A DNA stretch of 64,000 nt from Pseudotabrizicola formosa (GTDB lineage Bacteria; Pseudomonadota; Alphaproteobacteria; Rhodobacterales; Rhodobacteraceae): the NCBI RefSeq assembly GCF_002900965.1, contig NZ_PJOM01000002.1, forward strand, positions 62,001 to 126,000, written 5' to 3'. The first letter of the stretch is position 1. Every line of letters starts with the position of its first letter. The notes below the pieces were generated by a model. It did no database searches. It saw only the letters and a list, made by a program, of their open reading frames with translations, and was not told where the DNA came from. Of the stretch, positions 40,255-58,777 are shown piece after piece. Made by a program: the position numbers and the translations under genes.

Positions 40255-41361
40255 TCAGCGGCGGCGGACCAGAAAGGCGCGGGCGGTGTTCAGGGCTTCA
40301 CGGATGGTGACATCCATGTCCAGATAGCGATAGGTGCCCAGCCGGCCGACAAAGGTGACGTTTTGCGCGTCGCGGGCCAGGGCTTCGTAATCGGCCAGCA
40401 GCGTCTGCTCGGCGCTGAGGCGGATCGGGTAATAGGGGATGTCGTCGGGGCCGGCGGCGCGGGCGTATTCGCGGTAGCAGACAGTGCGGGCATGGCTTTC
40501 CCACGGGGCGAAATGCTTGTGTTCGGTGATGCGCGTATAGGGCACATCCGGATCGGGGTAGTTCATGACCGCACAGCCCTGATGGTCGCCAGTATCGGTA
40601 AAGCGCTCAAAGTCCAGCGTGCGGTAGCCGAGCCGTCCCAGCCGGAAACCGAAATAGCCGTCCAGCGGGCCGGACCAGAAGATGTGATCGGCGCTGGCCG
40701 CCATGCTTGGGTCATAGGGCGTGTTCAGCCGTGTGAGGATGGCCGGGTGATCCAGCAGGCGGGCGACCAGATCGGTATAGCCCTGTTGCGGAATGCCCTG
40801 AAAGCGATGGCTGAAATAGTTGTCATCGTAGGTGAAGCGCATCGGCAGCCGCTTGAGGATTGAGGCGGGCAATGCGCGCGGTGACAGGCCCCATTGCTTT
40901 TCGGTATAGCCCTTGAAGAAGGTCTCGTAGATCTCGGGGCCGACCATCTGCAGCGCCTGATCTTCGAAATTGGTGGCGGGCACATCGGCGGGCGCGGCGC
41001 GGCTGGCGATGAAGGCCTGCGCCTCGGCCGGACGCAGGGTCTGGCCGAAGAACTGGTTGATGGTGTGCAGGTTGATCGGCATCGAATAGACTGCGCCGCG
41101 TGCCGTGGATTTTACCTGATTGCGAAACGGCATGAACGTGGCGCGGCTGGTGACATAGTCCCACACTTCGGCATCATCGGTGTGAAAGATATGCGGCCCA
41201 TAGCGGTGCAGCATGACGCCGGTTTCGGCGCAGCGTTCGGTATGGCAGTTTCCGGCGATATGGGGCCGGCTGTCGATCACGGTGCTGGACAGGCCCGCTT
41301 CGGCCAGTTCGCGCGCAATGACTGCCCCGGAAAACCCTGCCCCGACAATCAGAATGGTCAT
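40255..41361 (-). CDS. glf: UDP-galactopyranose mutase
   Basis: This flavoenzyme converts UDP-galactopyranose to UDP-galactofuranose. The 368 residues begin with the FAD dinucleotide fold ILIVGAGFSGAVIAREL and contain RYGPHIFHTDD, the conserved YSMPINLHTINQF, EKQWG, and IFWSGPLDGYFGFRLG, all typical of bacterial Glf. The C-terminus contains FVGRLGTYRYLDMD. The ATG at 41361 is preceded by GGGGGCGG. It predicts a galactofuranose-containing glycan and fits galE and the GlfT1-like gene about 18 kb downstream. Confidence 0.96.
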   Translation of the reverse strand: MTILIVGAGFSGAVIARELAEAGLSSTVIDSRPHIAGNCHTERCAETGVMLHRYGPHIFHTDDAEVWDYVTSRATFMPFRNQVKSTARGAVYSMPINLHTINQFFGQTLRPAEAQAFIASRAAPADVPATNFEDQALQMVGPEIYETFFKGYTEKQWGLSPRALPASILKRLPMRFTYDDNYFSHRFQGIPQQGYTDLVARLLDHPAILTRLNTPYDPSMAASADHIFWSGPLDGYFGFRLGRLGYRTLDFERFTDTGDHQGCAVMNYPDPDVPYTRITEHKHFAPWESHARTVCYREYARAAGPDDIPYYPIRLSAEQTLLADYEALARDAQNVTFVGRLGTYRYLDMDVTIREALNTARAFLVRRR

Positions 41362-41518
41362 GCGCCGCCCCCGACTTGTGTGTGAGTCCTGTCTAGACGG
41401 CGGGAGGGCGTCGCACAACCTGCGGTGTTGTGGTGTAGCCCCCTTGCCCTGTGGCGCGTGATGGTGAAACGTGGGGAAACCCACGCGCGGCAGACGCGTG
41501 CAATACGGCAGGGCTAGG

Positions 41519-42265
41519 ATGACGCAGGCAGATCAGGCGCAGCATCGGCGGTTCATCATCGTGGGTCTGCCGCGCAGTGGCACGACCTATCTGATGACCT
41601 TGCTGAACTCGCACCGCCTGGTGACCTGCTCGGGTGAGTTGTTCAACCCCTACAGCGTGATCGAAACCGCAGAGCCCAATTACGACCCGGATCTGCGATA
41701 CAAGCGCGACTGGGGGCCGCGTTATTTCATGCGGCAATTCTTCGAACGCCATGAGGCGGGACCGTGGCAGCGGATCGGGTTCAAGCTGATGCTGGGGCAC
41801 AATATCAGGGTGCTGAGCCAGTTGCCCGATCTGGCACAGGTGCGGATCATCTATGTTCACCGCGACAACCGGCTGGCACAGGTCGCGTCCTTTCTGAAGG
41901 CAATGCAGACCAAGACCTGGGCGCAAACCCGGCGGTCACGCGCCATGACACAGAAGATTGTCGCAAGTCCCGAGGAGATCAGCCATCGCTGGCATGAATA
42001 TGCGACGATGGACTTCCTGTTTGCCCAATGGCTCGGCACCCTGCCCAATCCGAGCCTGACGCTGGAGTATTGCGAGCTGTTCAAGCCGGGTTTCAATGCG
42101 CGGATCTGCGGCTTTTTGGGCATAGAGACGGACCCGGACATGAACTCTCCGCTGATCAAGCAGGGAAGCAACCGGGTCCTTGACCGGTTTGCCACACCCG
42201 GCCCGATCGAGTCCTACATGCGTTATCTTGGCCGCGCCAACTGGCTGGAGGATGAGCTGGTCTGA
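41519..42265 (+). CDS. Sulfotransferase (Stf0/NodH-like)
   Basis: The 248-residue protein has the PAPS-binding loop IIVGLPRSGTTYLMTLLNSH (about 13-32), then TCSGELFNP, and a 3'-phosphate region RIIYVHRDNRLAQVASFLKA. This order resembles bacterial carbohydrate sulfotransferases of the Stf0 or LPS type. It probably sulfates the polysaccharide made by this locus. The next glycosyltransferase gene begins at the base after its stop, so they are co-transcribed. It diverges from glf with 157 bases between starts. Confidence 0.85.
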   Translation: MTQADQAQHRRFIIVGLPRSGTTYLMTLLNSHRLVTCSGELFNPYSVIETAEPNYDPDLRYKRDWGPRYFMRQFFERHEAGPWQRIGFKLMLGHNIRVLSQLPDLAQVRIIYVHRDNRLAQVASFLKAMQTKTWAQTRRSRAMTQKIVASPEEISHRWHEYATMDFLFAQWLGTLPNPSLTLEYCELFKPGFNARICGFLGIETDPDMNSPLIKQGSNRVLDRFATPGPIESYMRYLGRANWLEDELV

Positions 42266-43798
42266 ATGAAAATCCTGTATGTGAATTGGGTTGATTATCT
42301 TGACCCCGAGGGCCGGGGCGGCGGCGTGTCGCTGTATCAGCGCAATCTGATGCGGGCGATGGCGGCCCTGCCGGGGGCAGAGGCCAGTTTCATCGCCTGC
42401 GGCACGTCTTATGATCCGCTGCGCCCGCGGCCGCGCTGGGAAAAGATGCATCATGGCCCGCAGGAGGCACGGGACCGGCGGTTTGATCTGGTCAATTCCG
42501 GCACGCTCGCGCCGGGGCATGCGTCCTTCGGGCAGGCGGCCCAGATCAGCCATCCGGCGACCGAGGCGGTGTTTTTCGACTTTCTGGCGCGGACCGGCCC
42601 CTATGATGTGGTGCATTTCAACAATCTTGAAGGGCTTCCGGTCGATGTGCTGCACCTCAAACAGCTGTTTCCGGCCACCCGGCTGGTGCTGTCCCTGCAC
42701 AACTATTATCCGTTCTGCCCGCAGGTGAATTTCTGGCAGGATGAAGCCCGCCATTGCACCGATGATGGCGCGGGCGCGCGCTGTGTCACCTGCCTGCCGC
42801 ATCGGTGGAACGCCGGGCAGATCCGGGCCGGGCATGGGTTGGCCTATCGGTTGAAGGTGGCGGGCGTATCGCCGGACAGCGCGATGTTCCGGCAGGCCTT
42901 CCGGGTGATCTTCGGTCTGGGCCGGCGTCTGGGCCGCGTGCAGGGGGCATGGCAGCGGCGTGTGGCGGACCCGGTGGCAGGGGCAGATGCGGCGTCCGGC
43001 TTTGTGCAGCGGCGGGCGGCGATGGTGCGCCAGATCAACGCGCATTGCGACCTGGTTCTGTGCGTGTCAGACCGCGTGCGCCAGATCGCGCTGCGCCAGG
43101 GGATCAGGGCCGACAAGGCCGTTACCAGCTATATCGGCACGGTCGAGGCGCAGGCTTTTGCCAAGGCCCCGGCGCGTGGCCCGATCCTTCGGCCCGATGG
43201 CACGGTGAAGCTGGCCTATTTTGGTTACATGCGGCGCGACAAGGGGTTCTACTTTCTGCTCGATGCGCTGGAGGCGCTGCCGGACGCGGTGCTGAACCGC
43301 CTGCATCTGGTGGTGGCCGCCCGGCGCGGTGAGGCACAGGTGATGGCGCGGCTCGCGGCGCTGGAGCCCCGGCTGGCGGTGTTCCGGCATCAGGATGGCT
43401 ATGGCCATGGCGATCTGGACGGGCTGTTGGCCGATGTGGGTCTGGGCCTGCTGCCGGTGATGTGGGAGGACAACCTGCCGCAGGTGGCGATCGAGATGCA
43501 TGCGCGGCGCATTCCCCTGCTTTGTAGCGACATGGGCGGCGCGCAGGAACTGGGCAACAGCCCGGACTTCGTGTTCCGCGCCGGCGATGTGGCGGCCTTT
43601 GCTGACCGGATCGGGGCAATCCTGTCCGGCGCGGTGGGGCCGCAGGACTATTGGCGCAATGCGATGGTGCCAGAGACGATGGGACCGCATCTCGACAAGC
43701 TGCTGGCGCTCTATCGCGGCGAGGCGGCTTTGCCGCTGGACAGCACCGATTGCACAAAGGGGCTTTCGGTCCAGCGAACCGAGATGGCGGGGTCATAG
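42266..43798 (+). CDS. Glycosyltransferase, GT4-like (GT-B fold)
   Basis: The 510 residues fit a GT-B enzyme. The N-terminal half has a Gly-rich acceptor loop (DPEGRGGGVSLYQRNLMRAM) and VHFNNLEGLP, then LSLHNYYPFCPQVNFW with a Cys cluster HCTDDGAGARCVTCLP that could bind zinc. The C-terminal donor domain has YFGYMRRDKGFYFLLDAL and PVMWEDNLPQVAIEMHA, a variant of the E-x7-E nucleotide-sugar motif. Sugar and linkage are unknown. Its 3' end overlaps the convergent gene at 43711 by 88 bases. Confidence 0.87.
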   Translation: MKILYVNWVDYLDPEGRGGGVSLYQRNLMRAMAALPGAEASFIACGTSYDPLRPRPRWEKMHHGPQEARDRRFDLVNSGTLAPGHASFGQAAQISHPATEAVFFDFLARTGPYDVVHFNNLEGLPVDVLHLKQLFPATRLVLSLHNYYPFCPQVNFWQDEARHCTDDGAGARCVTCLPHRWNAGQIRAGHGLAYRLKVAGVSPDSAMFRQAFRVIFGLGRRLGRVQGAWQRRVADPVAGADAASGFVQRRAAMVRQINAHCDLVLCVSDRVRQIALRQGIRADKAVTSYIGTVEAQAFAKAPARGPILRPDGTVKLAYFGYMRRDKGFYFLLDALEALPDAVLNRLHLVVAARRGEAQVMARLAALEPRLAVFRHQDGYGHGDLDGLLADVGLGLLPVMWEDNLPQVAIEMHARRIPLLCSDMGGAQELGNSPDFVFRAGDVAAFADRIGAILSGAVGPQDYWRNAMVPETMGPHLDKLLALYRGEAALPLDSTDCTKGLSVQRTEMAGS

Positions 43799-46700
43799 AT
43801 GGTCTCGCGCCCTTCGCGGATCAGGGTCAGGTATTTGCGGTATTCCTCGGCATTGTTGAAATGCTGGCCGCGCGCCACCTCGGCCACAGCCTTGGCGCGG
43901 AAGGCGGCGGTATATTTGAAATGGCCAAACAGCAGGGCGCGCGGGGAGGGCCGGGTTTCGGCGACGTAATGCAGCCCGTCGGACAGGCGCATCCAGGGCT
44001 GATAGCGCAGCACGGCGATTTTCTGCGCTACAAAAAGTTCGGGGCGCGAACCCGGCAGCAGGCGGTGCCGGGTGGCGGAGGTATAGGTCTGCGCATTGGA
44101 AAACGGGCCGCGCCCCAGCGCAGTGGTCAGAAACGGATCACGGTCGATGTAGGGGGCTGCGGTAAACGGCGACTGGTCGGCGAACGTTGCGTCTGACAGC
44201 GGCCCGCCCGGATACATGTCGAGCATGAAGACACGGGCGGCATCATGATCCGTGAAGTCGGGGCCCAACAGCAGGTCGGGCAGATTGCCCGTGGCATCGG
44301 CAGTCCATGTCAGCAGCTCATCGGCATCGGCAACCACCGACCACAGGCCGGTCCGCTGGGCCAGCAGCGCCTGTTGCCAGAGCACGCCGTAATGCGATCG
44401 GCGGTAATCGGAGTCGACGGTAAAGAGCGCCACATCCGGTTGATCGGCAAGATGTTCCAGCGTCCCGTCATCCGAGCCATTGTCGGCCATCAGAAAGCTG
44501 GTGACGCCCAAGGCCCGGTAATGGGCCAGAAAATGCGGCAGCATGGTGATTTCGTTGCGCAGACAGGCCACGATGGCCACCGGGGCCGTGCGAGCATGGT
44601 CAAGCCGGGCCGGGGGAGAGATCAGATCCAGCGCGTGGCTTTGCGCGCCAAGCCGGGCCGGGATCAGCGTGGGCCAGAGCTTTGCCGCCGCGGGGCGACG
44701 GGATTTCGCGGTGCGTGTGGCAAGGTCTTGCAGGTCATGCCCGTCCAGATGCGCGAGTTTGACGCCCGACCCGATAAAGGGGAGGCAGGTGTTTTCCCAC
44801 TTGGGCACCAGCATACCACCCGCGCGTGCCCGGCGCAGCACATGGACGCGGTAATCCTCGCCCCTGACGCGGATGCCGGACAGCGCGAGCAGATCGCCCA
44901 CCAGCTTGTCCTCCATGAACGAGGCCTGGATCAGGCGCTGGCCTTCTGCGCTGGCGGCACTGGCCAGCAGTGCAGAGATGGCACGGGGGCTGAGCAGATA
45001 GCCCGATCCGCCATCGGCATAGGTTGACGGCTCGGGCGATTTGTCCAGATCATGACGGCCGCGCAGCGAGCTTGATTTGCCCATGTGCCAGCTGCGGTCC
45101 GTCTGGCCGCGCGCCCGGGCCAGCGGGCGGCCGTAATAATTGGCTTTCAGGCAGGACAGGCTGAAGAAATATTCCTCTACATCCAGAAAGCAGTCGTCAT
45201 CGACCTTCAGCATCCGGCGGCCGGGGAAGTGCTGATGCACATGGGCAATGGCGGCGAGGGATTTCTGCGGCAGGCCTTCGTAATCATCGGGGGCGGTCAG
45301 GCAGACGACATCCGGCGGGGCCGGGCCGGTGGGGTCGCCAACGACGACGATCGCGGGGATGCCGAGACGGGCAAGATCCGCCAGCCAGCCCCGGCGCAGG
45401 GCAGGAATGCGGGTGGCAAGGTTGGGGTGGCAGGACATGACCACGACCACGGCGTTGAACAAGGCGGTTGCCGCATCGGGGGGCGGGAGGGCAGGGCTGG
45501 CTTGGCCTGCGGGCAACGGCGGCAGGCCCAGTGCCGCTTGAACCGGGGCGGCCAGTTGCGGGTTGGCCTGCACCGCTTGCAAGGCAGGTGCCACAGCCGC
45601 ACAGGTCAGCGCGCCGGGCGTGATCTGTGCGACCGCGACCATCCGTCGGAGCCCGGCGAGCAGCAGGCTGATGGCTGCCGGGTCCTCGCGCAGCGCAAGG
45701 ATCAGGCCAAGGCTGACCCCCAGCCCCAGATGCCCGGCTCCGCTGCCTGCCAGTGCCAGGGCATCGGTCAGAACCCTGTCCAGCCGGGCCAGACGCTGGG
45801 CGGGGGGCGTGTCGGGCCAGGCGGTGATCAGGTCAAAGGCGGTCTGGCCGAGCTGGCGTTCCAGCACCTCGAACGCCGCGGAACGCGGGGCGCGGCCAGT
45901 GCCGGACTGGCTGCGGCTGATGGCACTGCGCACATCAAAGCCGGGGTCATCGCTGGCCCCGGGCCGGAACAGATCGCGCAAGGCGAGATCGGGGTGCCAG
46001 GGCGCGCTCTCGCGCAGATCGGGGACAGAGTGCAGGCAGAGTGCGGCGGCGGCCACACCCTGAACGTTGAGGGCGTGAAGCACCGACAGGGCGGCGGCAC
46101 TGCGCGCGGGATCGGTCAGGCGGGCAAAGGCCTGTCCGGCGGCCAGCAGGGCGGGGGCAAAGGCCGACAGGGTATCGCTGTCCGCAGCGGAGGGAAGGAG
46201 GGACCAAAACCGCGGCGACAGGCCATAGGCGGCCAGTGCCGTCTGTTCGATTGACCTGCGCTGGTCGGGCGGCAAGCGGGCCAGTTGGCCCAGCAGGGCA
46301 AGCAGGCCGTCCATCATCCCGTGGCAGGGGGTGCGGCCCCAAGGGTCTTGGGCCTGCGCGGTCAGCAGGGTGCAAAAACCGTCGATGATGCCGAGGCGCT
46401 GATGTTCGGGGATCGGCAGGGTGCCGGGGCATGCCACAGCCCGTGCGATCCAGCCCAGAGCCGCGCTTGCCAGCCAGCCGCCGTGGCGGTTGGCCAGCAG
46501 ATGCATCCGGCTGATGACCTGATCATGTTCGCCATCAAGTAGCTGGAACGGCAGGCGCAGCGAGACATAGCCCACATCATCGCTGGGGCGGACCGGGGGA
46601 AGGCCGCGCGCGGAGACAGCCGCGTGCAGCAGATCAAAGGCATCTCGTTCGCAAAAGCTGGGGCAGAGGGTGAGGGCGAGGTGTTCGCGATCCTCTCCCG

Positions 46701-47856
46701 CCGGCGCTGGCAGGGCGGTGGCGAGCCAGTCGGCAAGGGCGGTGCGGTCGGGCGCGGTGGCCAGCAGGCGCGACAGATCGGCTGTCAGCGCGGCAAGCGG
46801 CGCTGCGGCAGGGGCTGCTGGCGGTGCCAGGACGGGGGGCGTCGGGCCGATGGCTGTGGCCAGAAAGCCTGACAGGCCAAGCCGGGCCGCCGCTGCGACA
46901 AGGGCTGCGTGAACCTGCGGGTCCAGACGGGGCCAGACGCCGGAATGGCAGACATGCTCGATCGCCTGCAGGGCGGCAATATCGTCATTGGCGATGGCAC
47001 CGTTGCGGGTCTGGCGCAGCAGGCCCCGGGCAAGGCCGGTTCGGTCGATGCGCAAAGGCGGGAGGGTGCCGCCGGTCAGCAGGTCGATCATGGCCAGCTC
47101 GGCAGCATCATCGGGGCCTGTGCCCAGCCAGATCCGGCCCGGCAGCAGAACGGCCGCGACGCCCTCGGGCAGGGCAAAGGTATTGGGCAGCGAAGACAGC
47201 GCCTGCGTTGCGGGGCACAAGGCGACCGGTGCCGCTGATCCGGGCAGGATCACCGCATGGCGCGGCGCAGACTGCCCGCGTTGCAGCCGTTCTGCCAGTT
47301 CCATCCGGTCGGTCAGCACCGGACCTGCGCCGGCGCGCAGTTCCTGCCACAGCCGGTCAAAGCTGTGATCCCGGGTTTCGATACTGTCCCAGAGCACGGC
47401 GCCATCGGCGATATAGCCGGTGATCTGGTGCAGCCTTGGATAGCCGCGCCGGAGCAGGAAACGTGCGGTCCGGTCAAACCGGGGCCGGCGGAAAAAGCGG
47501 GCCCGTCGCAGACCGTCGATCTCGACGGTCACGGCATGGGCGTCAAAGGACAGAGTTAAGGGAAAGCGGTGTCTGGGAAAGGGTACGGCAAGGTGGTCTT
47601 CGCGGTGCCAGCCCCTGGCATCTTGCTGGTTGATCACGGCAAGATTGTCGGCAAGGCGCAATGACAGATGGAAGGGAATATCGTTGGGGCCCGCTGCGCA
47701 AAAATTCAGGTTGGCGTAAGGGGTCCAGTCCGGGTCGATCTGGCAGCGGAAGGTGGCACCATTGGTTGTGCGGAACGGGATCATCGGGGGCCTGTCTGCG
47801 GATACTGGTACGGGTACGGATCGGTTATGCGGTGCCGGGCGCAGTGTGGCAATCAT
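43711..47856 (-). CDS. Multidomain protein: galectin-like domain plus two glycosyltransferase domains
   Basis: The 1381 residues show four parts. (1) About 28-145 reads as a galectin-like beta-sandwich: His63 and Arg67 (FHLSLR), Asn76, Trp83 and Glu86 (GWHRED) match key residues of animal galectins with the same His-Arg, Asn-Trp and Trp-Glu spacing. (2) About 150-790 is mostly helical and not recognised. (3) About 800-1050 resembles GT31/Fringe enzymes: VVMSCHPN, the metal motif KVDDDCF (near 886), YADGGSGYLLS, and FMEDKLVGDLLALSGIRV. (4) About 1090-1375 is a GT2-like domain of the PF13704 type: VAIVACLRNEITMLPHFLAH, then MADNGSDDGTLEH and VVADADEL (near 1177). No signal peptide is visible. 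The ATGA start overlaps the stop of the upstream GT2 gene. The galectin assignment is from motif reading only. Confidence 0.8.
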   Translation of the reverse strand: MIATLRPAPHNRSVPVPVSADRPPMIPFRTTNGATFRCQIDPDWTPYANLNFCAAGPNDIPFHLSLRLADNLAVINQQDARGWHREDHLAVPFPRHRFPLTLSFDAHAVTVEIDGLRRARFFRRPRFDRTARFLLRRGYPRLHQITGYIADGAVLWDSIETRDHSFDRLWQELRAGAGPVLTDRMELAERLQRGQSAPRHAVILPGSAAPVALCPATQALSSLPNTFALPEGVAAVLLPGRIWLGTGPDDAAELAMIDLLTGGTLPPLRIDRTGLARGLLRQTRNGAIANDDIAALQAIEHVCHSGVWPRLDPQVHAALVAAAARLGLSGFLATAIGPTPPVLAPPAAPAAAPLAALTADLSRLLATAPDRTALADWLATALPAPAGEDREHLALTLCPSFCERDAFDLLHAAVSARGLPPVRPSDDVGYVSLRLPFQLLDGEHDQVISRMHLLANRHGGWLASAALGWIARAVACPGTLPIPEHQRLGIIDGFCTLLTAQAQDPWGRTPCHGMMDGLLALLGQLARLPPDQRRSIEQTALAAYGLSPRFWSLLPSAADSDTLSAFAPALLAAGQAFARLTDPARSAAALSVLHALNVQGVAAAALCLHSVPDLRESAPWHPDLALRDLFRPGASDDPGFDVRSAISRSQSGTGRAPRSAAFEVLERQLGQTAFDLITAWPDTPPAQRLARLDRVLTDALALAGSGAGHLGLGVSLGLILALREDPAAISLLLAGLRRMVAVAQITPGALTCAAVAPALQAVQANPQLAAPVQAALGLPPLPAGQASPALPPPDAATALFNAVVVVMSCHPNLATRIPALRRGWLADLARLGIPAIVVVGDPTGPAPPDVVCLTAPDDYEGLPQKSLAAIAHVHQHFPGRRMLKVDDDCFLDVEEYFFSLSCLKANYYGRPLARARGQTDRSWHMGKSSSLRGRHDLDKSPEPSTYADGGSGYLLSPRAISALLASAASAEGQRLIQASFMEDKLVGDLLALSGIRVRGEDYRVHVLRRARAGGMLVPKWENTCLPFIGSGVKLAHLDGHDLQDLATRTAKSRRPAAAKLWPTLIPARLGAQSHALDLISPPARLDHARTAPVAIVACLRNEITMLPHFLAHYRALGVTSFLMADNGSDDGTLEHLADQPDVALFTVDSDYRRSHYGVLWQQALLAQRTGLWSVVADADELLTWTADATGNLPDLLLGPDFTDHDAARVFMLDMYPGGPLSDATFADQSPFTAAPYIDRDPFLTTALGRGPFSNAQTYTSATRHRLLPGSRPELFVAQKIAVLRYQPWMRLSDGLHYVAETRPSPRALLFGHFKYTAAFRAKAVAEVARGQHFNNAEEYRKYLTLIREGRETIYDPAISVRWTESPFVQSVLSSGKAASPR

Positions 47857-49583
47857 CCGGCTGGGGGCAAGCGGAAGATTTGGCGCAGGACCGAGGGGGT
47901 GTCGGGGTCAATCACGCCCGCCGTGCCGCACCAGCCGCGCGCTTTGCCAATCTGCCACAGGCGCAGCAGCATCAGCGCGCGTCGCAGGCGGTGCCGGGTG
48001 CCGCGCCGCTGCTCTTGCGCCAGCAAATGGCTGGCCTGGCGCAGGAACAGGCGGCGCGCCCCCCCCGCTGGCAAAAGCGGGGCGAGGGCGGTGCTCCAGC
48101 CGTCAAGCGCTTGCAGGGCGATGTGCAAGGGGGGCGGCGGGACGGGCGGGGGCGCGGCACCCGGGATTTGCGCGCAGGCAACCGGAGCTTGCGCCGCGCA
48201 GAGCCGCAGGGCCCGTTCTGCCAGGCGCAACTGCGGCTGGGGGCTGACGGGTTGGCAGGCGAAGGCCGCCTTGACCAGCAGGGCGTGCCGATCCGGTTTG
48301 AGGTCAAGGGCTGCGTCAGGCGACAGGATGCGGGGCGGCGACAGGGGGCTGGCTTGTGGTTGTGGCGTCGAAGACCGCGTGACCAAGACCGCAGCCAGAT
48401 CGCTGTGCAGCAGGTGACCGGCGATGTCGGCAAGGGCGGCATGATCGACCAGCCCGAACCCGGTCAGGTCAATCATCAGACCTTGCGGAGCCAAGGGCAG
48501 ATCTGCCGTGGCAAGCTGGAAAAGCGGGGCCAAGGGTGACGCAGGGTCTGGCAGAAGGTCAGGCGGGGTGTCTTCCATGCTTTCGCCAAGTCCGGCGGCA
48601 AGGCGGATCGTCACCGGCGGCTGGCCCGACAGGCTGCATGCCTGCAGCGCGTCAAGGTAGCCGTCCCAGGCCCAGTCGGGCGCAAGCTGATGGCGGGCGA
48701 GGAAATCGGCTGCCGCCTGTCGGAACCGTGCGGCACGTTGGGGCGCGCGGATCACCTCCAGCCGTTCGCAGAACAGCCGGGTGGCAAGCCGTGCCAGCCC
48801 GGTATCGGCACCGGATTTGTCGGCGCTGCGAAAAATCTTGGCCGAGCGTTCCAGCACCGGAATCTGTTCAAAAACCCGGTCATCATCGGCGCGGGTGATC
48901 TGGCCGTCGCGGTCCAGCGTGTACAGGTACAGCGGGTCAGACAGATGGTGCAGGACCCGACTTTTGGCAGCAAGGCGCTGAAAGAAGGTGTGATCCTCAT
49001 ACCAGGTGCCTTCATCGAAGCGCAGATCGCCGATGAAGGCGCGCCGGTAGAGCTTGTTCCAGGCAGAGGGAAAATGGCAGATCACCTGCGCCCAATCGTC
49101 CAGCGCAAAGGGCACCGCCTGCGTGCCGGGGCGTGGTTCAGTCTGGCCGTGGATCGCGGAATGCGGATGCCGGCTGCCATCGGGCGTGCAGAAGGCGACA
49201 CCGCTGGCCACCCAATCGGCCCCGGTGCTGTGCAGCGTGTCGTGCAGGCGGCACAGGAAGGTCGGGGCATAGCGGTCGTCCCCGTCCAGAAAGGCAATGA
49301 CCGGGGCGCGGGCGAGATCCAGCCCTGCGTTGCGCGCGCCGGACAGGCCCCGGTTTTCCTGATCGATGAGCCGGAACCTTGGATCGCCGCCAATTGCGGC
49401 AAGGGCCTGCTGGCGGGTGGCGTCGGTGGAACCGTCGTTGATCACCAGCGCCTCGAAGCCCGAAAAGGTCTGGCAGCGGAGCGAGTCAATCGCGGCGCCG
49501 ATGTAGGGGGCCACGTTATAGGCCGGCACGATGACGCTGATCTGAGGGCTGTCGTGCCGGGTCACGTCAGGATGCCGTCGCAC
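47853..49583 (-). CDS. Glycosyltransferase family 2 with an unassigned C-terminal extension
   Basis: The 576 residues begin with a GT-A domain: SVIVPAYNVAPYIGAAIDSL (about 15-34), LVINDGSTDATRQQ, ENRGLSGARNAGLD and the metal motif AFLDGDDRY. The acceptor region GTWYEDHTFFQRLA follows. After about residue 300 the sequence changes to a Pro/Ala/Leu-rich C-terminal region of about 270 residues that I cannot assign (including APPPVPPPPLHIALQALDGW and a basic tail). The start is a GTG at 49583. It is translationally coupled (ATGA) to the galectin-like protein gene, so the two products probably work together. Confidence 0.87.
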   Translation of the reverse strand: MRRHPDVTRHDSPQISVIVPAYNVAPYIGAAIDSLRCQTFSGFEALVINDGSTDATRQQALAAIGGDPRFRLIDQENRGLSGARNAGLDLARAPVIAFLDGDDRYAPTFLCRLHDTLHSTGADWVASGVAFCTPDGSRHPHSAIHGQTEPRPGTQAVPFALDDWAQVICHFPSAWNKLYRRAFIGDLRFDEGTWYEDHTFFQRLAAKSRVLHHLSDPLYLYTLDRDGQITRADDDRVFEQIPVLERSAKIFRSADKSGADTGLARLATRLFCERLEVIRAPQRAARFRQAAADFLARHQLAPDWAWDGYLDALQACSLSGQPPVTIRLAAGLGESMEDTPPDLLPDPASPLAPLFQLATADLPLAPQGLMIDLTGFGLVDHAALADIAGHLLHSDLAAVLVTRSSTPQPQASPLSPPRILSPDAALDLKPDRHALLVKAAFACQPVSPQPQLRLAERALRLCAAQAPVACAQIPGAAPPPVPPPPLHIALQALDGWSTALAPLLPAGGARRLFLRQASHLLAQEQRRGTRHRLRRALMLLRLWQIGKARGWCGTAGVIDPDTPSVLRQIFRLPPAG

Positions 49584-49733: not shown

Positions 49734-52256
49734 TCAGATCACCGTGATATGGCTCTCCAGTGCCTGCAGATCGTAAACCCCCAGTAAGTGAACGATCGTG
49801 TCGGACAGGCCGAAATCCAGCACGATGCCATAGGGGGTCACGCTGCCATAGTGCTGCGCGATCTGGCTGCCCGACGGGAAGGTGCCGCGGAACATCCATT
49901 GCGTCAATTGGATCTGGTCGCCTTCGGCCAAGCTGAAATCATGGACAAAGGTATCTTTGTAATAGCGGTAGAACAGGAAAGTGTCCGCGCCGTCATTGCC
50001 CCAGACATGGTCTGTGCCTGCGCCCGAGGCGATCAGGTCGTTGCCGGGGCCGCCCGAGATCACATCATTGCCCGGACCGCCCCAGATCGTGTCATGTCCA
50101 GACCCGCCATGGAGAGTGTCATGGTTCGAGGCGCCGAACAGATCGTCATCGCCGGCAAAGCCGAAGATCAGATCATTGCCGGGACCGCCGCCGATGGTGT
50201 CGAAATGGTCGCCCCCCAGAAGGGTATCATTGCCGGACCCGCCCCAGATTGTGTTCTGGCCGTTGCCGCCGTCCAGCAGGTCGTGCCCCGCGCCGCCACC
50301 GATCAGGTCGTGTCCGTCGCGGGCGCGGATCACATCATTGCCCAGCCCGCCCCAAAGCTGGTTGTTGCCACCGGAGGCAAAGATGAAGTCGTCGCCTGCC
50401 AGACCGAAAACGGTATCGTTGCCCAACCCGCTGTAGATCAGATCATTCCCTGCGCCGCCATCCAGCGAATCAGCGCCCGAGGCACCGGTCATGGTGTCAT
50501 CGCCTTGGGTGCCGGTACGGGTCAGCGGACCTGTGGACCGGTTCTGCCAGCCGGGATCTGTTGACCAGTCTGGCAGACGGGAGAGTTCGGTCGGCCCGTC
50601 GGCCGGGTCGATGCTGCTGCTGCCGGTAAGACCGGTGGCGGGCATGGGCGTGGGCAGAGGGGTGCCGCCATCGTCCCCAGTGCCGCCCGGTTCATCCGGC
50701 GCACCAGGGCTCAGGGCCCCATCACCCTCGCCATGAGCCGAACCGCCCTCGGCGCTTGCGGTGAGGGTGGACACCGGGATGCGCGCCGGGCCGAGCCCGA
50801 CGGGCAAGACCTCCGCCAGCGTCAGCGGGCGGTCGTCGGATGCGAGAATGGTGACCGTCCGGCCATTGAAGGACAGGGTGATGCCGTCGCTGCGGGGCGT
50901 GACGGTCAGCTGCCCGGTATCGCGCAGCATGGGCCAGCCTGTCAGGTCGAGCGCATCGGCCCCCCGTTGGAAATCGGTGATCGTGGTCAGGGTTGCGGCG
51001 TCTCGCAGCACAAAGGTATCGCGTCCTGCGCCTCCGGTCAGACGCGTGCCGGAGGTCTCTGCGATCAGCACATCATCACCGCCGCCCCCGGTCAGACCCT
51101 GATTGGGGGCACCGCTGGTCAGGATATCCGCCCCGCCGGTGCCGGCCAGCGTGGCGCCGTTGCCTGCGCCTGTGATCACGTCACCGAGAGATCCCAGCGG
51201 CCATTCCAGCACCGTCAGCCCGATCTCGGTTTCGCCCCCGACAATGATGAACAGCCGCTCGCCGCTGTGAATGATCTTGACCGCGGTGACATTTGCCAAC
51301 CCGCCGGCAAGGCTGTTTTCCAGCGTCGCAAGGGTTTGCAGGGTGCCGTCCGGCAGCAACCGGAACAGGGTGACGCCATCATCCCCGCCGCCGGCGGCGA
51401 CAAAGACTTGTCCGTTCACGGTCACCGTATCCACCGCGCAGACCGAGGCAAATCGGGTATCGCGGGAGTCGAGCAGGTGATCGGTAATGGTCATCTGCCC
51501 CTGATCCGAGAGACGGATCACGGTCAGGCTGGAGGTGCCGGCAGCAGCCGCGATCACGAAACTCTGGCCGCCCATGGTCACAACATCCAGATCCGAGAGG
51601 GTGGCAACGGCAAGCCCGTCGCTGGCCGCAAGCGATGCGGTGGGGCGCAGGCTGTTTGTCGCCGTGTCATGGCGCAGGGCGGTAAGGCTGTTGCGCGCGG
51701 CATCAATGGCCAGCAGCAGCGGCTGGTCCTGACCGGCGATCTGCACCAGACTGTGGGTACCGCTGGGCATGGCACCGGTGATCGACAGTTCAATCATCGC
51801 GCCACTGCCGGGATCATAGACCGCGACACGGCCGCTGTCTGGGGCCAGAACATAGAGCGGGGCTGCGCTGTCTGGCTGGTCTGCAATCACCATGCGTCCG
51901 GTGAATCCATTTGGCAGGAGCAGCGCAAAGGGCGTGCCGATGCCCCCCGACAGATTGGCGCTCCAGCCGACAAGTCCGCTGCCCGAGGCAAGGCCAAGCA
52001 CAATCGCAGTCGATGTGCCAAGCTGGGCAACCGCCATATCGGTTTCCGCCTGAAGCCCATAGCCGGTGGTCATCGTCCGGACCGCGATCAGGGTCAGGCG
52101 GCCATCTGACCCGATGCCATAGGAGGAAAGGCCCCCGTTGGCTCCGGAATAGGCAAACAGGCGCTCTCCACCCGGTCCGTCCACCAAGGCAAGATCGATG
52201 ATCCCAAGATCAACCGAGTCGTTCCCGCTTGAAAAGCGGTCCACCATGCGCAGCAT
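49734..52256 (-). CDS. RTX calcium-binding protein with N-terminal propeller-like domain
   Basis: The 840 residues have no signal peptide, as expected for type I secretion. About 1-350 contain repeats resembling a beta-propeller (DLALVDGPGGERLFAYSG, then VATLSDLDVVTMGGQSFVI, and FVAAGGGDDGVTLFRLLPDG). A short RTX block lies near 355-420 (GAGNGATLAGTGGADILTSG). A Ser/Gly/Pro-rich linker follows, then a long RTX block near 580-755 with GGxGxDxUx repeats such as GGPGNDLIFGFAGDD. The C-terminus from about 755 (DTFLFYRYYKDTFVHDF) resembles that of the neighbouring protease. The ATG at 52256 follows GGGGGTGG. Upstream in-frame starts to 52478 lack support. No secretion genes are nearby. Confidence 0.85.
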   Translation of the reverse strand: MLRMVDRFSSGNDSVDLGIIDLALVDGPGGERLFAYSGANGGLSSYGIGSDGRLTLIAVRTMTTGYGLQAETDMAVAQLGTSTAIVLGLASGSGLVGWSANLSGGIGTPFALLLPNGFTGRMVIADQPDSAAPLYVLAPDSGRVAVYDPGSGAMIELSITGAMPSGTHSLVQIAGQDQPLLLAIDAARNSLTALRHDTATNSLRPTASLAASDGLAVATLSDLDVVTMGGQSFVIAAAAGTSSLTVIRLSDQGQMTITDHLLDSRDTRFASVCAVDTVTVNGQVFVAAGGGDDGVTLFRLLPDGTLQTLATLENSLAGGLANVTAVKIIHSGERLFIIVGGETEIGLTVLEWPLGSLGDVITGAGNGATLAGTGGADILTSGAPNQGLTGGGGDDVLIAETSGTRLTGGAGRDTFVLRDAATLTTITDFQRGADALDLTGWPMLRDTGQLTVTPRSDGITLSFNGRTVTILASDDRPLTLAEVLPVGLGPARIPVSTLTASAEGGSAHGEGDGALSPGAPDEPGGTGDDGGTPLPTPMPATGLTGSSSIDPADGPTELSRLPDWSTDPGWQNRSTGPLTRTGTQGDDTMTGASGADSLDGGAGNDLIYSGLGNDTVFGLAGDDFIFASGGNNQLWGGLGNDVIRARDGHDLIGGGAGHDLLDGGNGQNTIWGGSGNDTLLGGDHFDTIGGGPGNDLIFGFAGDDDLFGASNHDTLHGGSGHDTIWGGPGNDVISGGPGNDLIASGAGTDHVWGNDGADTFLFYRYYKDTFVHDFSLAEGDQIQLTQWMFRGTFPSGSQIAQHYGSVTPYGIVLDFGLSDTIVHLLGVYDLQALESHITVI
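49985..50510 (-). repeat. RTX nonapeptide repeat block
   Basis: The coding sequence contains more than fifteen imperfect 27-base repeats encoding GGxGNDxIx-type calcium-binding nonapeptides (about residues 582-757 of the RTX protein). These are coding repeats for calcium-induced folding after secretion, not a DNA repeat array. Confidence 0.85.
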
Positions 52257-52530
52257 GCGCCACCCCCGACCCATAACACCCAACCGGCAGGCTTGAGGGG
52301 TGGCGGGCTGCGGGCAGGGCGCAATTCCGGCCAAATCCGGGCCATTGCGCCGTAATTTCGGAAAGGTTGATGAAAGCCCTTTGGTGTTTTGGCCTGCCGG
52401 GCGGGGCCTGTGGGCCCCAAGCTGCGGTGCGACGCTGGATCGCGGTGGCCGGTTTGGCGCTGTTAGCACAATGGCCACCTTTGCCCTTTACGTGGGAGTG
52501 GCGGGTGCATGACAACGGGCTGGATATCTG

Positions 52531-54663
52531 ATGGCGAAAGACAGCGTTCTGGGTCCGGGTCTGCGGGATGCCTGCATGGTCATCCGCCACGCTGGGGTGG
52601 AAATCGGCGATGTCCCAGCATCAGTGGCCACATCGGCGCGGGTTGCGGTGGGTGACACATTCACCGGCAGTCTGACTGCCGGCGACAGGGATTGGGTCGC
52701 GGTCGGCCTGACCGCCGGGCAGGCCTATGTCTTCACAGCCTTTGGCACGGGCGGTGGGGTGGGGCTGTCCGATCCGCAGCTTGTGCTGCGGGACGTCAGT
52801 GGCACGTCAGTTGCGTTCAATGATGATGCGGAAGCCGACAATGCCACGTCGATGCTGCGATTTACTCCTTTGACCAGTGGCACATATTTTCTGGATGTCG
52901 GCGGGACGGGCGGCGCGCAGGGCCAGTACACATTGCGCACGGCGACGGATATATTCACCATTGCGCAAATCGCCAGCCAGCTGACAGAGTCCGGATGGGG
53001 CGTCGCCAGATCGGCCCTGACGCTCGAGGCGATCCGGACTGGTCTTCCGGTCACCGTTGATCTGAGCGCCTTGTCCGCGCAGGGGCAGGATGTGGCACGC
53101 ATGGCGCTGGAGATCTGGTCTGTCACCACCGGTGTGGTCTTTGCTGAGACTGCTGCGGCAGGGGCCACCATCCTGTTTGACGATGATGATCCGCGCTATG
53201 GCAGCGGTCTTTACGCCTTTGCCGGCCCAAATGCGATCTACCCGGATGGAACCTATGGCAGTGCCAAGGTAACGGTCAGCACGGGGTGGCTTGATGCCTA
53301 CGGGGCGAGCTTCGGCAGCTATGGCTATTTCACCTATCTGCATGAACTCGGCCACGCGCTGGGGCTGGGCCATGCCGGCTTTTACAATGGCAGCGCCCGC
53401 TATGGGGTCGACAATCACTATCGCAACGACAGCACCCAGATGACGATCATGTCGTATTTCGATGTGGCTGCGAACAGCTTTGTCGAGGCGACCTATTTTC
53501 AGCCGATCACGCCGATGGCGGCGGATCTTGCGGCGATTGCCTCCCTGTACCCGGGCTTGCCTGCGGTCTTTGCCGGCGACACCGTCTGGGGCGCGCAGTC
53601 CAACGTCTCGGGGCGCTTGGGCACGTCGATGGCGGTGATGTTTGACGGTCTGGCCCGGCCAGCATGGATGGACCCGGCCGAGCCCTTCGGCCTGACAATC
53701 GTCGATCACGGGGGCTGGGACCGGATGGCGTTCGGCGCGACCCATGCCGCGCAGCTGATCGACATGCGGCAGGGCGGGGTGTCGGATGTGTATGGCGCGC
53801 GGGGCACGGTGGTCGTTGCGCTGGGGAGCGTGATCGAGGAGGCCCATGGCGGGCAGGGGGCTGACACCATCCACGGCAACGACGCCGACAACCTGATCCG
53901 GGGCCATGACGGCGCGGATTTCATCATCGGGAATGCGGGGCATGATACGCTCTTTGGCGGCGGCGGGGATGACATCATCTGGGCCTCGCTCGGGAATGAC
54001 AGTGTGGATGCAGGGTCAGGCGCGGATGAGGTCTGGGGCGGTCCCGGCAATGATACGCTGAAGGGTTGCGACGGGAATGACACCCTGGGCGGGGCGGGTG
54101 GCAATGACCGCCTGTCCGGTGACGCGGGCGATGATAGGCTCTGGGGCGGGGCTGGGCGTGATCTGCTCTATGGTGGCAGCGGCGGGGATGAACTGGCGGG
54201 TGGTGCGGGCAATGACACGGTTTACGGCGGTGATGGTCATGACACCGTCTTTGGAGCCATGGCCGATGATCTGATCTTTGGCGAAGCGGGCGATGATCTG
54301 ATCTGGGCCGGTCAGGGCAATGACACGGTTTATGGCGGCGATGGCAATGACACCCTTGCGCCAGGAGGGGGCGATGATGTCGTGACAGGGGGGGCGGGTG
54401 CCGATGTATTCGTGTTCCACGCCAACAATGGCACAACGCAGATCACCGACTTTCTGGCCAGCGACGGCGATCTGCTGCACCTGTCAGCCTGGCTGTGGCA
54501 GGCGCAATTCGGGGCGCTGTCGGTGGAACAGGTTGAGCTGAGTTTTGGCCGGCTGGATGGCGATGGATTCGTGTTGTTGGAATTTGAGGCCGCAAACACG
54601 TGGATTTCGCTGGTTGGCCTGGGTGATCTTGACGGGTTGCATCAGGCCATCGTCATCATCTGA
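52531..54663 (+). CDS. Serralysin-like RTX metalloprotease (M10 family)
   Basis: The 710-residue protein has four parts. (1) Residues about 30-140 look like a bacterial pre-peptidase (PPC) domain (GDTFTGSLTAGDRDWVAVGL, then GTYFLDVGGTGGAQGQYTLR). (2) A metzincin catalytic domain carries the zinc motif HELGHALGLGH (His271, Glu272, His275, His281) and the Met-turn IMSYF (Met307). (3) RTX repeats span about 438-625. (4) A C-terminal domain ends LHQAIVII, typical of type I secretion substrates. No Sec signal is visible. It should be a secreted calcium-dependent protease. The ATG at 52531 is used; an internal ATG at 52576 is possible. Confidence 0.9.
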   Translation: MAKDSVLGPGLRDACMVIRHAGVEIGDVPASVATSARVAVGDTFTGSLTAGDRDWVAVGLTAGQAYVFTAFGTGGGVGLSDPQLVLRDVSGTSVAFNDDAEADNATSMLRFTPLTSGTYFLDVGGTGGAQGQYTLRTATDIFTIAQIASQLTESGWGVARSALTLEAIRTGLPVTVDLSALSAQGQDVARMALEIWSVTTGVVFAETAAAGATILFDDDDPRYGSGLYAFAGPNAIYPDGTYGSAKVTVSTGWLDAYGASFGSYGYFTYLHELGHALGLGHAGFYNGSARYGVDNHYRNDSTQMTIMSYFDVAANSFVEATYFQPITPMAADLAAIASLYPGLPAVFAGDTVWGAQSNVSGRLGTSMAVMFDGLARPAWMDPAEPFGLTIVDHGGWDRMAFGATHAAQLIDMRQGGVSDVYGARGTVVVALGSVIEEAHGGQGADTIHGNDADNLIRGHDGADFIIGNAGHDTLFGGGGDDIIWASLGNDSVDAGSGADEVWGGPGNDTLKGCDGNDTLGGAGGNDRLSGDAGDDRLWGGAGRDLLYGGSGGDELAGGAGNDTVYGGDGHDTVFGAMADDLIFGEAGDDLIWAGQGNDTVYGGDGNDTLAPGGGDDVVTGGAGADVFVFHANNGTTQITDFLASDGDLLHLSAWLWQAQFGALSVEQVELSFGRLDGDGFVLLEFEAANTWISLVGLGDLDGLHQAIVII
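53846..54404 (+). repeat. RTX nonapeptide repeat block of the metalloprotease
   Basis: Imperfect 27-base repeats encode GGxGxDxUx units (for example GGAGNDTVYGGDGHDTVFG and GGDGNDTLAPGGGDDVVTG) in residues about 438-625. They form the calcium-binding beta-roll of the secreted protease. Confidence 0.85.
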
Positions 54664-54692: not shown

Positions 54693-55346
54693 TCACTTCA
54701 TCAATGCGGCATGCGCGGCGAGTGCGGCTTTGACATCGTCGAAATAGCTGAGCTTGCCCGTGTCGAGCAGAATGGCCGCGTCGCAAAACCTGAGGATATC
54801 CGAGGTGTTGTGGCTGACCAGCACCGCGCTGGAGGTTTTCATGCGCTCGGCAAAGACTGCCGCGCTTTTCTCGCGAAAGCGGGCGTCGCCCACGGCGGTG
54901 ACCTCGTCGACCAGATAAGTGTCAAAGGCGATGCCCATGGAGACGCCAAAGGCGAGCCGCGAATACATGCCAGAAGAATAGGTGCTCATCGGCATGTGGA
55001 AGTGTTTGCCAAGCTCGGCAAAGTCTTCGACAAAGCTGATCAGCGTTTCGGTATCGACGCCGTAAACGCGGGCGATGAACTTGGTGTTTTGCGCCCCGGT
55101 CAGATCGCGGTGAAAGCTGCCCGCAAATCCAACCGGCCATGACACACTGCCCTGCACCAGAACGCGGCCGGTGGTGGGTGGCATCGTGCCCGCGATGATC
55201 TTGAGCAGCGTCGATTTGCCAGCCCCGTTGCGCCCCAGCAGCGCCAGTGATTTTCCGGTGGGCAGCACCAGGTTCAGGTTGTCCAGCACCTGATGCCATT
55301 CCCCCCTGACCCAGAACCCCTTTGACAGGTTTTCGAACACCATCAT
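54693..55346 (-). CDS. kpsT: Polysaccharide export ABC transporter ATP-binding protein (KpsT-like)
   Basis: The 217-residue ATPase powers export of capsular polysaccharide. Walker A is LLGRNGAGKSTLLK, the signature is TYSSGMYSRLAFGVSMG, and Walker B with the D-loop is TYLVDEVTAVGD. The short length and the GMxxRLAF signature are typical of KpsT/CtrD rather than O-antigen Wzt proteins with a long C-terminal domain. GGGAGGG precedes the two adjacent ATGs. It follows the kpsE-like gene by 34 bases on the same strand. Confidence 0.93.
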   Translation of the reverse strand: MMVFENLSKGFWVRGEWHQVLDNLNLVLPTGKSLALLGRNGAGKSTLLKIIAGTMPPTTGRVLVQGSVSWPVGFAGSFHRDLTGAQNTKFIARVYGVDTETLISFVEDFAELGKHFHMPMSTYSSGMYSRLAFGVSMGIAFDTYLVDEVTAVGDARFREKSAAVFAERMKTSSAVLVSHNTSDILRFCDAAILLDTGKLSYFDDVKAALAAHAALMK

Positions 55347-55380: not shown

Positions 55381-56661
55381 TCAGCCCCGGTCCCGCAGGC
55401 TGTAATAGACCAGCGCAGCGGTGGCCCATGCCATCAGCAGAAAACCAAGGATCATCGACAGCAGGATGACACGGCGCGGAAATTCGGCGTCCTGCGCCTT
55501 GGTGGGCGGGATATAGGCCGCCAGATACAGCGACTGGCGATTGGCATTGGACAGCGCCGCCTGCCGCGCCGCAAGAGCAGCGGTGTAGTTGCGCTGCGCA
55601 AATTCAAGGTCGACGCTAAGCCCTTCGAATTGCGCAATCATTTCGGGATATGAGCTATCGGATGCAACATCGGTGGTGGTGCCGAAGAAGTTGCGCTCCT
55701 GATCGATCCGGTCCCGGATCACGGTGATCCGACGGTCAAGCTGTGCGCGCCGGGGATCATCCGCGCGGGTGGATGGGTCGAGCAGATCAAGCTCGACCAG
55801 CGCCTGCGCAAGCTGTTGCTGCAGGTTCGACACCACGCCCAGCCGCCCCTGAATGTCGGCAATCGGATCGACGATCCGGGTTTCGGCGCGGAACACCGTC
55901 AGCGCGCCGCGCGCCACACGCAGGCTTTCAACCGCATCAGCCAGTTCCCGGTCCGCATTGGCCAGCGCATCGCGCCGGGCGGTGTCGTTGAGCTGGTTGA
56001 TCATGGTCTGGCTGGTCTCGAGGATGACCATCGCAATCGCTTGCGCCGTGTCCGGATCAAGGGCCTGCACCGTCAGGTCAATCAGACCCGAGGAGGAATC
56101 GTAGGACAGGCGCAGAACGCGTTTCCAAAAGCCGAACAGCTCTTCCGTCGTCGCATCGGGCCAGATGGAATAGACCGGGTCCCAGGGCCAGCCCTGCCCG
56201 TAATGCGCCCGCAGGTCGATCTGGGCATCGACCTTTTCCATCATGGTCTGGCTTTGCATGAATTCGTGCAGGACCCCGGCATTCACGCCTTGCGAGCCCC
56301 CGGTCAGAAACGACAAGCCGCCCAGAATGGCGCTCGCGCTGTTGCCGTCTTCCTGCCGGATGGTGAACCCCGCACGCGAGGCATATTGGTCATTGGCCAG
56401 CACAAACAGGTACAGCGCGCTGAGGATGACGGGTACCACTACCATTGCCACAAAGGACAGCATCAACCCGTAATGCCGCCGCTTCAACCTGGCGGGGCCA
56501 GCCACAGGCCGCATCGGAACATTTGGCACTGGGGCGGCGGGGGCGGGTTTGGGCGCGGCGGAGGCGGGGGGGACGACAGCGATCGGTCTTGGCGGGGGTG
56601 CCGGCCCTGTGGGGCGAGCCGCCTCGGCTGACGCGTCTTGCGGTTTTGCCGGTTCGGTCAA
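55381..56661 (-). CDS. kpsE: Capsule polysaccharide export inner-membrane protein (KpsE/Wzz-like)
   Basis: The 426-residue co-polymerase-type protein forms the periplasmic link between ABC exporter and outer-membrane pore. It has a Pro/Ala-rich cytoplasmic N-terminus (about 1-60) and a first membrane helix (YGLMLSFVAMVVVPVILSAL, about 64-83). A Wzz-like periplasmic domain follows with a long coiled coil (about 220-380). A second membrane helix near the C-terminus (VILLSMILGFLLMAWATAAL) comes last. The start is TTG with AGGACGG upstream. It is transcribed away from the kpsM-like gene and into kpsT. Confidence 0.9.
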   Translation of the reverse strand: MTEPAKPQDASAEAARPTGPAPPPRPIAVVPPASAAPKPAPAAPVPNVPMRPVAGPARLKRRHYGLMLSFVAMVVVPVILSALYLFVLANDQYASRAGFTIRQEDGNSASAILGGLSFLTGGSQGVNAGVLHEFMQSQTMMEKVDAQIDLRAHYGQGWPWDPVYSIWPDATTEELFGFWKRVLRLSYDSSSGLIDLTVQALDPDTAQAIAMVILETSQTMINQLNDTARRDALANADRELADAVESLRVARGALTVFRAETRIVDPIADIQGRLGVVSNLQQQLAQALVELDLLDPSTRADDPRRAQLDRRITVIRDRIDQERNFFGTTTDVASDSSYPEMIAQFEGLSVDLEFAQRNYTAALAARQAALSNANRQSLYLAAYIPPTKAQDAEFPRRVILLSMILGFLLMAWATAALVYYSLRDRG

Positions 56662-56744
56662 GGTTCGCCGTCCTGAATAATTTGCACTCGTTACACAGAA
56701 ACAGCATATCTGAAGACGGTTTCATCAGACAAGGACGATTTCCC

Positions 56745-58590: not shown

Positions 58591-58777
58591 CAAACGCTCC
58601 CCTGCTGTGCAGCTTTGGTGGTGCCATGAGTTGCCCGTTACGACAAGCCCCAATGACGCAACAGGTTTCCCGTCCGCGAGTGCCATAAGGCCAAATGGGC
58701 TTGAGCCCGAAGGGCGGCTGGCCCATACCGCAACAGGTGCCGGCTGCTGGCCGGGCAAGGGGGACGGGCAACCCGGG

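Follow-up and report, generated by a model that had tools for sequence, protein, structure and literature searches.

A protein that joins an N-terminal galectin domain to two glycosyltransferase (GT) domains was identified in Pseudotabrizicola formosa (contig NZ_PJOM01000002.1, positions 62,001 to 126,000; hereafter the window, meaning the whole analysed stretch of 64,000 nucleotides). It is encoded on the reverse strand by an open reading frame (ORF) of 1381 residues at window positions 43711-47856. The N-terminal domain belongs to the galectin family, and the positions that contact the ligand in galectins are its most conserved residues. Judging from its sequence, the protein is probably a large bacterial enzyme that builds sugar chains.

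Domain architecture and fold

Along the ORF the order is galectin, a mostly helical middle region, a domain of glycosyltransferase family 31 (GT31) and a GT2-type domain. PF00337, PF01762 (Galactosyl_T/GT31) and PF13704 (Glyco_tranf_2_4) were matched in that order, and Pfam thus places galectin and GALT (GT31) domains together in one chain. The features of the ORF are as follows.

43711-47856, reverse strand: whole ORF, 1381 residues, ATG at 47856; alternative start Met25 at 47784
47422-47775, reverse strand: galectin domain, residues about 28-145 (PF00337, PDB profile search, model, Foldseek)
47656-47670, reverse strand: H63-L-S65-L-R67, counterpart of galectin HxNxR (49-row alignment)
47629-47631, reverse strand: Asn76 (49-row alignment)
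47599-47610, reverse strand: W83-x-x-E86 (49-row alignment)
45487-47364, reverse strand: middle region, residues about 165-790, a strand-mixed part and then an all-helical stretch in the model
44749-45453, reverse strand: GT31 domain, residues about 802-1036 (PF01762, B3GALT6/B3GALT5; limits from the model)
45193-45201, reverse strand: D886-D-D888, GT31 metal-binding motif (44/44 homologues)
44905-44916, reverse strand: M981-E982-D983-K984, GT31 motif containing the presumed catalytic base (44/44 homologues; meaning according to PMC11538602)
43762-44580, reverse strand: GT2-type domain (PF13704), residues about 1093-1365, with D1177-A-D1179-E1180

The ATG of the 1381-residue ORF shares bases with the TGA that ends the upstream GT2 gene (ATGA). 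Conservation begins near Met25, and because most close relatives align from this residue on, Met25 may be the true start. No clear membrane span was found in the 1381-residue protein, the highest 19-residue mean hydropathy being 1.71.

The galectin domain, with its predicted beta-sandwich fold, was accepted because profile searches, the AlphaFold model and Foldseek agree. In the full chain, PF00337 is matched at residues 49-136 (E 2.9e-4) with 20.7 bits, just below the cut-off of 22.1, and residues 22-165 alone reach 26.2 bits, above it. A six-frame search of the organism's own genome with PF00337 gave 25.9 bits, and none of 14 control genomes was matched. In the PDB, phmmer with the window protein retrieved galectin-9 (5.3e-6) and LEC-6 (3.9e-4). 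The galectin alignment comprises 49 domain rows, including that of the window, drawn from 52 homologous ORFs; searched alone, 40 of the 49 domains matched PF00337 (E<=0.01) and no other Pfam family. At E<=1 the profile of this family retrieved 196 distinct PDB sequences, of which the best 60 are galectins or named kin plus one entry labelled putative fiber protein. Its top match is the Toxascaris leonina galectin (1.5e-18 for two domains jointly, 4.9e-10 for the best single domain), and galectin-9 is matched at 1.9e-16.

The initial annotation had described a galectin-like domain by eye and proposed structure prediction as the check; in the model, residues 28-145 do form the galectin sandwich. 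The AlphaFold model of residues 22-800 has a mean predicted local distance difference test score (pLDDT) of 85.4; when its galectin part is divided into 13 blocks of ten residues, 12 of them score 85 or higher. Foldseek with the galectin model returned 1224 matches, the best 50 of which are all galectins or galectin constructs (E from 1.4e-5), with a target template modelling score (TM) of 0.63-0.77 for single-domain galectin entries. The middle region that follows, about 620 residues long and mostly helical in the model, separates the lectin from the catalytic domains. It has no PDB sequence match at E<=1, and no Pfam family is matched by more than 2 of 37 members; no fold search was run on this region by itself.

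The presence of GT31 and GT2-like domains in the same chain, also claimed from the start, is borne out by PF01762 (residues 849-996, E 1.8e-5, 25 bits, above the cut-off of 23) and PF13704 (residues 1100-1196, E 1.4e-20). A profile search of genome contigs, confined like all genome searches for homologues to Pseudomonadota, gave 44 loci with homologues. In the GT part, both families are matched by 44 of 44 sequences. Invariant in all 44 are D886-D888, Y907, G909, D948, G949, Y953, M981-K984, G987, D1177, D1179 and E1180; the alanine of D1177-A-D1179-E1180 is kept in 38. The GT profile retrieved B3GALT6 (1.6e-8) and B3GALT5 (1.2e-5) from the PDB. The model of the GT pair reached a pLDDT of 89.5 and a predicted TM (pTM) of 0.87, and its Foldseek matches are headed by CHSY3-CHPF (1.4e-13), with lysyl hydroxylase LH3 ranking next, ahead of B3GALT5 (5.9e-10), B3GALT6 (1.3e-9) and K4CP (1.1e-8).

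Sequence motifs I-V of GT31 enzymes are described in the available part of PMC11538602. Motif II (D886-D888) is found in 44/44 homologues. Motif III retains Y907 and G909 in all of them, with Asn at its first position in the window protein, and in motif IV G949 stands one place ahead of the listed spot, followed by G950 (37/44), Y953 (44/44) and S956 (34/44). Motif V keeps E982, D983 and G987 (44/44), with Lys for Val and Leu for Trp/Cys; motif I, compared by eye, agrees in its first Arg and its Trp only. The PF01762 match and the B3GALT5/6 matches in sequence and fold searches assign the domain to GT31, with a predicted GT-A fold and a predicted capacity for inverting transfer from a uridine diphosphate (UDP)-sugar. 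Two GT-A domains with catalytic acids are present in one chain, as in the alternating tandem GT-A polymerases of the chondroitin synthase type. Elsewhere in the same genome, two more genes are picked up by the GT2 half of the profile, with E values of 4.3e-48 and 2.3e-38; one of them lies at G000:C9:205937-207868.

Sugar-contact positions and known relatives

Galectins are generally described as animal lectins, and their ligand signature reads H-N-R, V-N, W and E-R. His63, Ser65, Arg67, Asn76, Trp83 and Glu86 align in register with the H/N/R/N/W/E of animal galectins, exactly as the initial annotation had it, and the final Arg is replaced, by His88. We take Asn76 to correspond to Asn61 of galectin-1, and W83-x-x-E86 to its W68-x-x-E71. 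Across the 49 domains the His, Ser, Arg and Glu are each kept in 47 and the Asn and Trp in all 49; the complete set of six is kept in 45. The eight columns conserved at 90% or more contain six of the eight galectin-1 ligand positions on the list that we assumed for this comparison (hypergeometric P 7e-8, for rows that are related and not independent, and with one of the six being Ser for Asn). The ligand-contact residues are thus the most conserved of the galectin domain. A chance match to galectins was ruled out by this overlap together with the PF00337 matches of the family.

In the model, the His, Ser and Arg alternate on a strand at model residues 39-46 and the Asn lies on the next strand, with the Trp and Glu just ahead of the strand after that, as in galectins. 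We infer from this strand register, not from coordinates, that the ligand residues would share one face of the sandwich. Compared with animal galectins (galectin-9, LEC-6 and the Toxascaris protein), the bacterial domain has the same fold, with HxxxR, Asn and WxxE in register; it differs in the Ser at the Asn of HxNxR, in the final Arg, which is usually absent, and in the attached enzymes. The first domain of the Toxascaris galectin likewise reads H-I-S-V-R in the profile search, and a Ser at this place therefore occurs in an animal galectin.

Two Roseibaca copies (L047:7980-12059 and L041:7698-12071) have E for the Ser of HxSxR, and L047 is also without the His. With their intact GT acids, these copies amount to a natural experiment on the importance of the lectin site.

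Among known enzymes, the chondroitin synthases CHSY3/CHPF and Escherichia coli K4CP likewise have two tandem GT-A domains in one chain, and one of the two in CHSY is GT31. Here, in contrast, the second domain is PF13704, and identity in the Foldseek rows is 11-14%; we know of no galectin domain in chondroitin synthases. The plant proteins GALT1-GALT6, whose galectin domain stands on the N-terminal side, share PF00337 and PF01762 in one chain with the window protein. In the available parts of PMC4687291, PMC8667403 and PMC5225481, the combination of galectin (PF00337) and GT31 (PF01762) in one chain is described for land plants and the role of its lectin is stated as unknown; the last of these, with 52 bacterial genomes included, reports the fused form in land plants only. 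The initial annotation, in calling galectins and GT31 best known from animals, passes over the land plants, in which the two are fused. Plant GALTs are predicted Golgi type II membrane proteins, three of them given as 619, 673 and 681 residues in the available part of PMC4687291, whereas the window protein has 1381 residues; being bacterial and, by hydropathy, without a clear membrane span, it was not filed as a plant GALT member. Its long middle region and second GT domain also set it apart by description, no second GT being named for plant GALTs in those excerpts. PF00337 lectins were counted in cyanobacteria in the survey PMC10655256, in the available part of which no GT fusion is named. 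Among the open-access titles listed, none has a bacterial galectin-glycosyltransferase fusion as its subject. The galectin-GT31 fusion is already known from land plants, and its bacterial form with two GT domains appears, as far as those titles go, to be new.

Gene neighbourhood and proposed role

The contig that carries the window is at least 1.15 Mb long. Around the galectin ORF, the window holds galE, glf, sulfotransferases and several GTs. The neighbouring features are listed below.

40255-41484, reverse strand: UDP-galactopyranose mutase Glf (TIGR00031, 309.4 bits, cut-off 303.75)
41471-42265, forward strand: sulfotransferase (PF13469)
42266-43798, forward strand: GT4-type glycosyltransferase, convergent, its 3' end overlapping the galectin ORF by 88 bases (43711-43798)
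47853-49583, reverse strand: upstream GT2 gene, 576 residues, its stop overlapping the start of the galectin ORF
49734-52478, reverse strand: repeats-in-toxin (RTX) protein, divergent from the M10-like gene
52531-54663, forward strand: M10-like RTX metalloprotease, beside the polysaccharide genes
54693-55346, reverse strand: ATP-binding cassette (ABC) exporter ATPase, KpsT-like, 217 residues (PF00005 over cut-off)
55381-56661, reverse strand: KpsE/BexC-type export protein (TIGR01010, 207 bits, below the cut-off of 437.5)
56445-57581, forward strand: ORF with an ABC-2 permease in residues 132-338, KpsM-like (PF01061 over cut-off; KpsM model 71.8 bits, cut-off 300)
57607-58797, reverse strand: UDP-glucose 4-epimerase GalE (TIGR01179, 389 bits, cut-off 262.3)
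58607-59791, forward strand: GT2 glycosyltransferase (PF00535 over cut-off; weakly GlfT1-like, 53 bits, cut-off 330)

The assignment to a polysaccharide locus made in the initial annotation holds, with the galactose-related Glf and GalE both over their NCBIfam cut-offs. Among the best 25 NCBIfam matches of the ABC ATPase, the galactan and Vi exporter models and the others all fall below their cut-offs. Across the 44 loci, homologues were found for the upstream GT2 in 25, the GT4-type enzyme in 19, the GT2 at 58607 in 15, the RTX protein in 14, the M10-like protease in 13 and the sulfotransferase in 8; all locus counts are lower bounds, as the flanks reach at most 8 kb and many contigs are shorter. 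The upstream GT2 enzyme is a frequent partner of the galectin-GT protein. Of 43 loci, 5 have it joined to the galectin end, 19 have it upstream on the same strand and 19 leave it unplaced (among these, L013 holds a homologue in its locus). In the tree, the five fused rows lie together on one side of a branch supported at 93/84.

At about even odds (roughly 0.5), we propose that the protein acts as a polysaccharide synthase in the cytosol, where its galectin domain retains the galactose-bearing chain as it grows, serving acceptor docking or processivity. It would be a multi-domain enzyme making a capsule-type polysaccharide exported by the ABC transporter. The GT31 and GT2 sites would differ in the sugar that they add, as is the case in the tandem GT-A chondroitin synthases, and one of the two sugars at least would be a beta-linked galactopyranose, in keeping with the galactose context given by Glf and GalE. 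The galectin domain would then grip galactose on the growing chain and keep it near the catalytic sites, which it could do because ABC-dependent polymers are finished inside the cell. It is possible, though tentative, that the lectin goes further and actively controls synthesis (processivity or chain length) through galactose on the nascent chain, which would make this a prokaryotic galectin lineage with a first role for galectin-GT31 fusions, separate from the plant one. The galectin-GT fusion observed initially is confirmed and its interpretation partly supported: beta-galactoside binding, a galactose-containing polymer and a gauge role for the lectin remain predictions.

Several results weigh against the proposed docking role. 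The Asn of HxNxR is replaced by Ser, and 41 of 49 domains lack the last Arg (8 have it at that column); affinity or specificity may for these reasons differ from that for beta-galactosides. In the survey of homologues, as suggested in the initial annotation, 9 of 49 domains fall short of PF00337 at E<=0.01, and the homologue L046 has no recognisable galectin domain. The signature is broken in 4 of 49 (L047, L041, L033 and L024) while their GT catalytic acids are intact, and together with L046 this indicates that the enzyme does not depend on the lectin in every case. Among plasmid copies, the signature of L086 is also broken, and L082-L085 retain all six residues (by eye). The pTM of the model covering the galectin and middle regions is 0.47, so that the model does not reliably position the lectin against the other parts of the chain; whole-length TM values of the GT-pair matches are low (0.15-0.31), and the likeness is therefore one of the GT domains and not of their packing. 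At the level of the locus, homologues of GalE were found in just 2 of 44, of Glf in 13 and of the exporter in 13-14 (KpsT 14, KpsE 14, KpsM 13), and rfb rhamnose genes are present in 3 of 5 plasmid loci.

Some of these observations would also suit an unlikely alternative in which the galectin fold was kept as a structural module, a protein-protein or scaffold domain docking the partner GT2, with sugar binding lost. Mammalian GRIFIN, whose galectin fold is said no longer to bind sugar, offers a parallel, and chicken GRIFIN is among the nearest Foldseek folds to the galectin domain. The fusion of the partner GT2 on the galectin side, the changed Asn and Arg positions and the broken motifs beside intact enzymes all fit such a module. 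The top-conserved columns of the domain, however, are the sugar-contact ones, which would be unexpected for a pure scaffold.

The same anatomy that underlies the docking proposal could serve as a length or stop gauge, in which the galectin reads terminal or spaced galactose and determines how long the chain becomes or passes it on to the exporter, replacing a Wzt-type C-terminal domain. Wzt-type exporters have a C-terminal sugar-binding domain and KpsT-type exporters do not. At only 217 residues, the ABC ATPase would be too short to accommodate a Wzt-like domain, and a long, mostly helical spacer separates the lectin from the catalytic domains. KpsT-type exporters, however, lack such a domain anyway, and the use of the spacer length as a ruler is speculation; we regard a gauge as improbable.

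Least probable is a GT31 site that acts as a galactofuranosyltransferase, like fungal GfsA, on the UDP-galactofuranose (UDP-Galf) of the neighbouring mutase, the lectin recognising another ligand such as Galf. Glf is nearby in the window and in a minority of the loci, GfsA is among the Foldseek matches of the GT pair (E 2.6e-5), and GfsA is a GT31 enzyme (PMC11538602, available part). Against this, 31 of the 44 fetched loci, whose flanks are short, show no Glf, and Glu982 is invariant, whereas GfsA has Gly at that place, suggested in the same excerpt as a mark of Galf transfer; by that criterion the invariant Glu argues against Galf.

With no clear membrane span, a mostly conserved site, broken-site variants and one homologue without the domain, this bacterial galectin-GT protein opens the question of the fused lectin to simple genetics, and offers a simple system for finding what such a lectin does for its enzyme. 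In addition, the gene serves as a marker for a set of polysaccharide loci with a possibly galactose-containing product.

Distribution of homologues

Of the 394 genomes in the family sample, 11 have a PF00337 match, as do 2 of the 398 in the phylum sample, the organism's own genome being counted in both. Profile A2 likewise matched 2 of 398 phylum-sample genomes (own counted; up to 10 candidates scored per genome). Profile A3 matched at least 30 of 385 class genomes (up to 3 candidates scored per genome); among the matches listed besides the window's own, all start at profile position 268 or later, in the GT2 part. The homologues found are nearly all from Rhodobacteraceae-type bacteria, on contigs and plasmids. 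In a GT-part tree built from the window and 43 loci, Methylobacterium (L040) and Sulfurisoma (L046) are the rows outside Paracoccaceae/Roseobacteraceae labels, and two rows labelled only Pseudomonadota group inside those families. The Sulfurisoma homologue (L046:7290-11588) keeps the GT31 and GT2-type domains, and an apparently different N-terminal stretch replaces the galectin, a possible natural domain swap.

The full protein had no match in 50,697 phage records, and no near match was found in E. coli. The family runs deep within bacteria, as seen from identities to the window galectin domain that fall to 17% and from the GT-part tree of bacterial rows, and these data do not support a recent transfer from an animal or plant.

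Nineteen plasmid records match the protein, five of them over the GT31 part. Homologues of KpsT/E/M are present in four of these five loci, and four of the five copies have N-terminal extensions of 638-739 residues. The three loci with rfb genes (L082, L083 and L084) are on plasmids of Sulfitobacter W027, Tropicibacter oceani and Thalassococcus S3, together with an ABC exporter and replication initiator A. In these features they resemble Roseobacter biofilm plasmids, whereas the window, among its scanned genes, has galE and glf but lacks any rfb gene. The five plasmid records examined name the gene only as glycosyltransferase.

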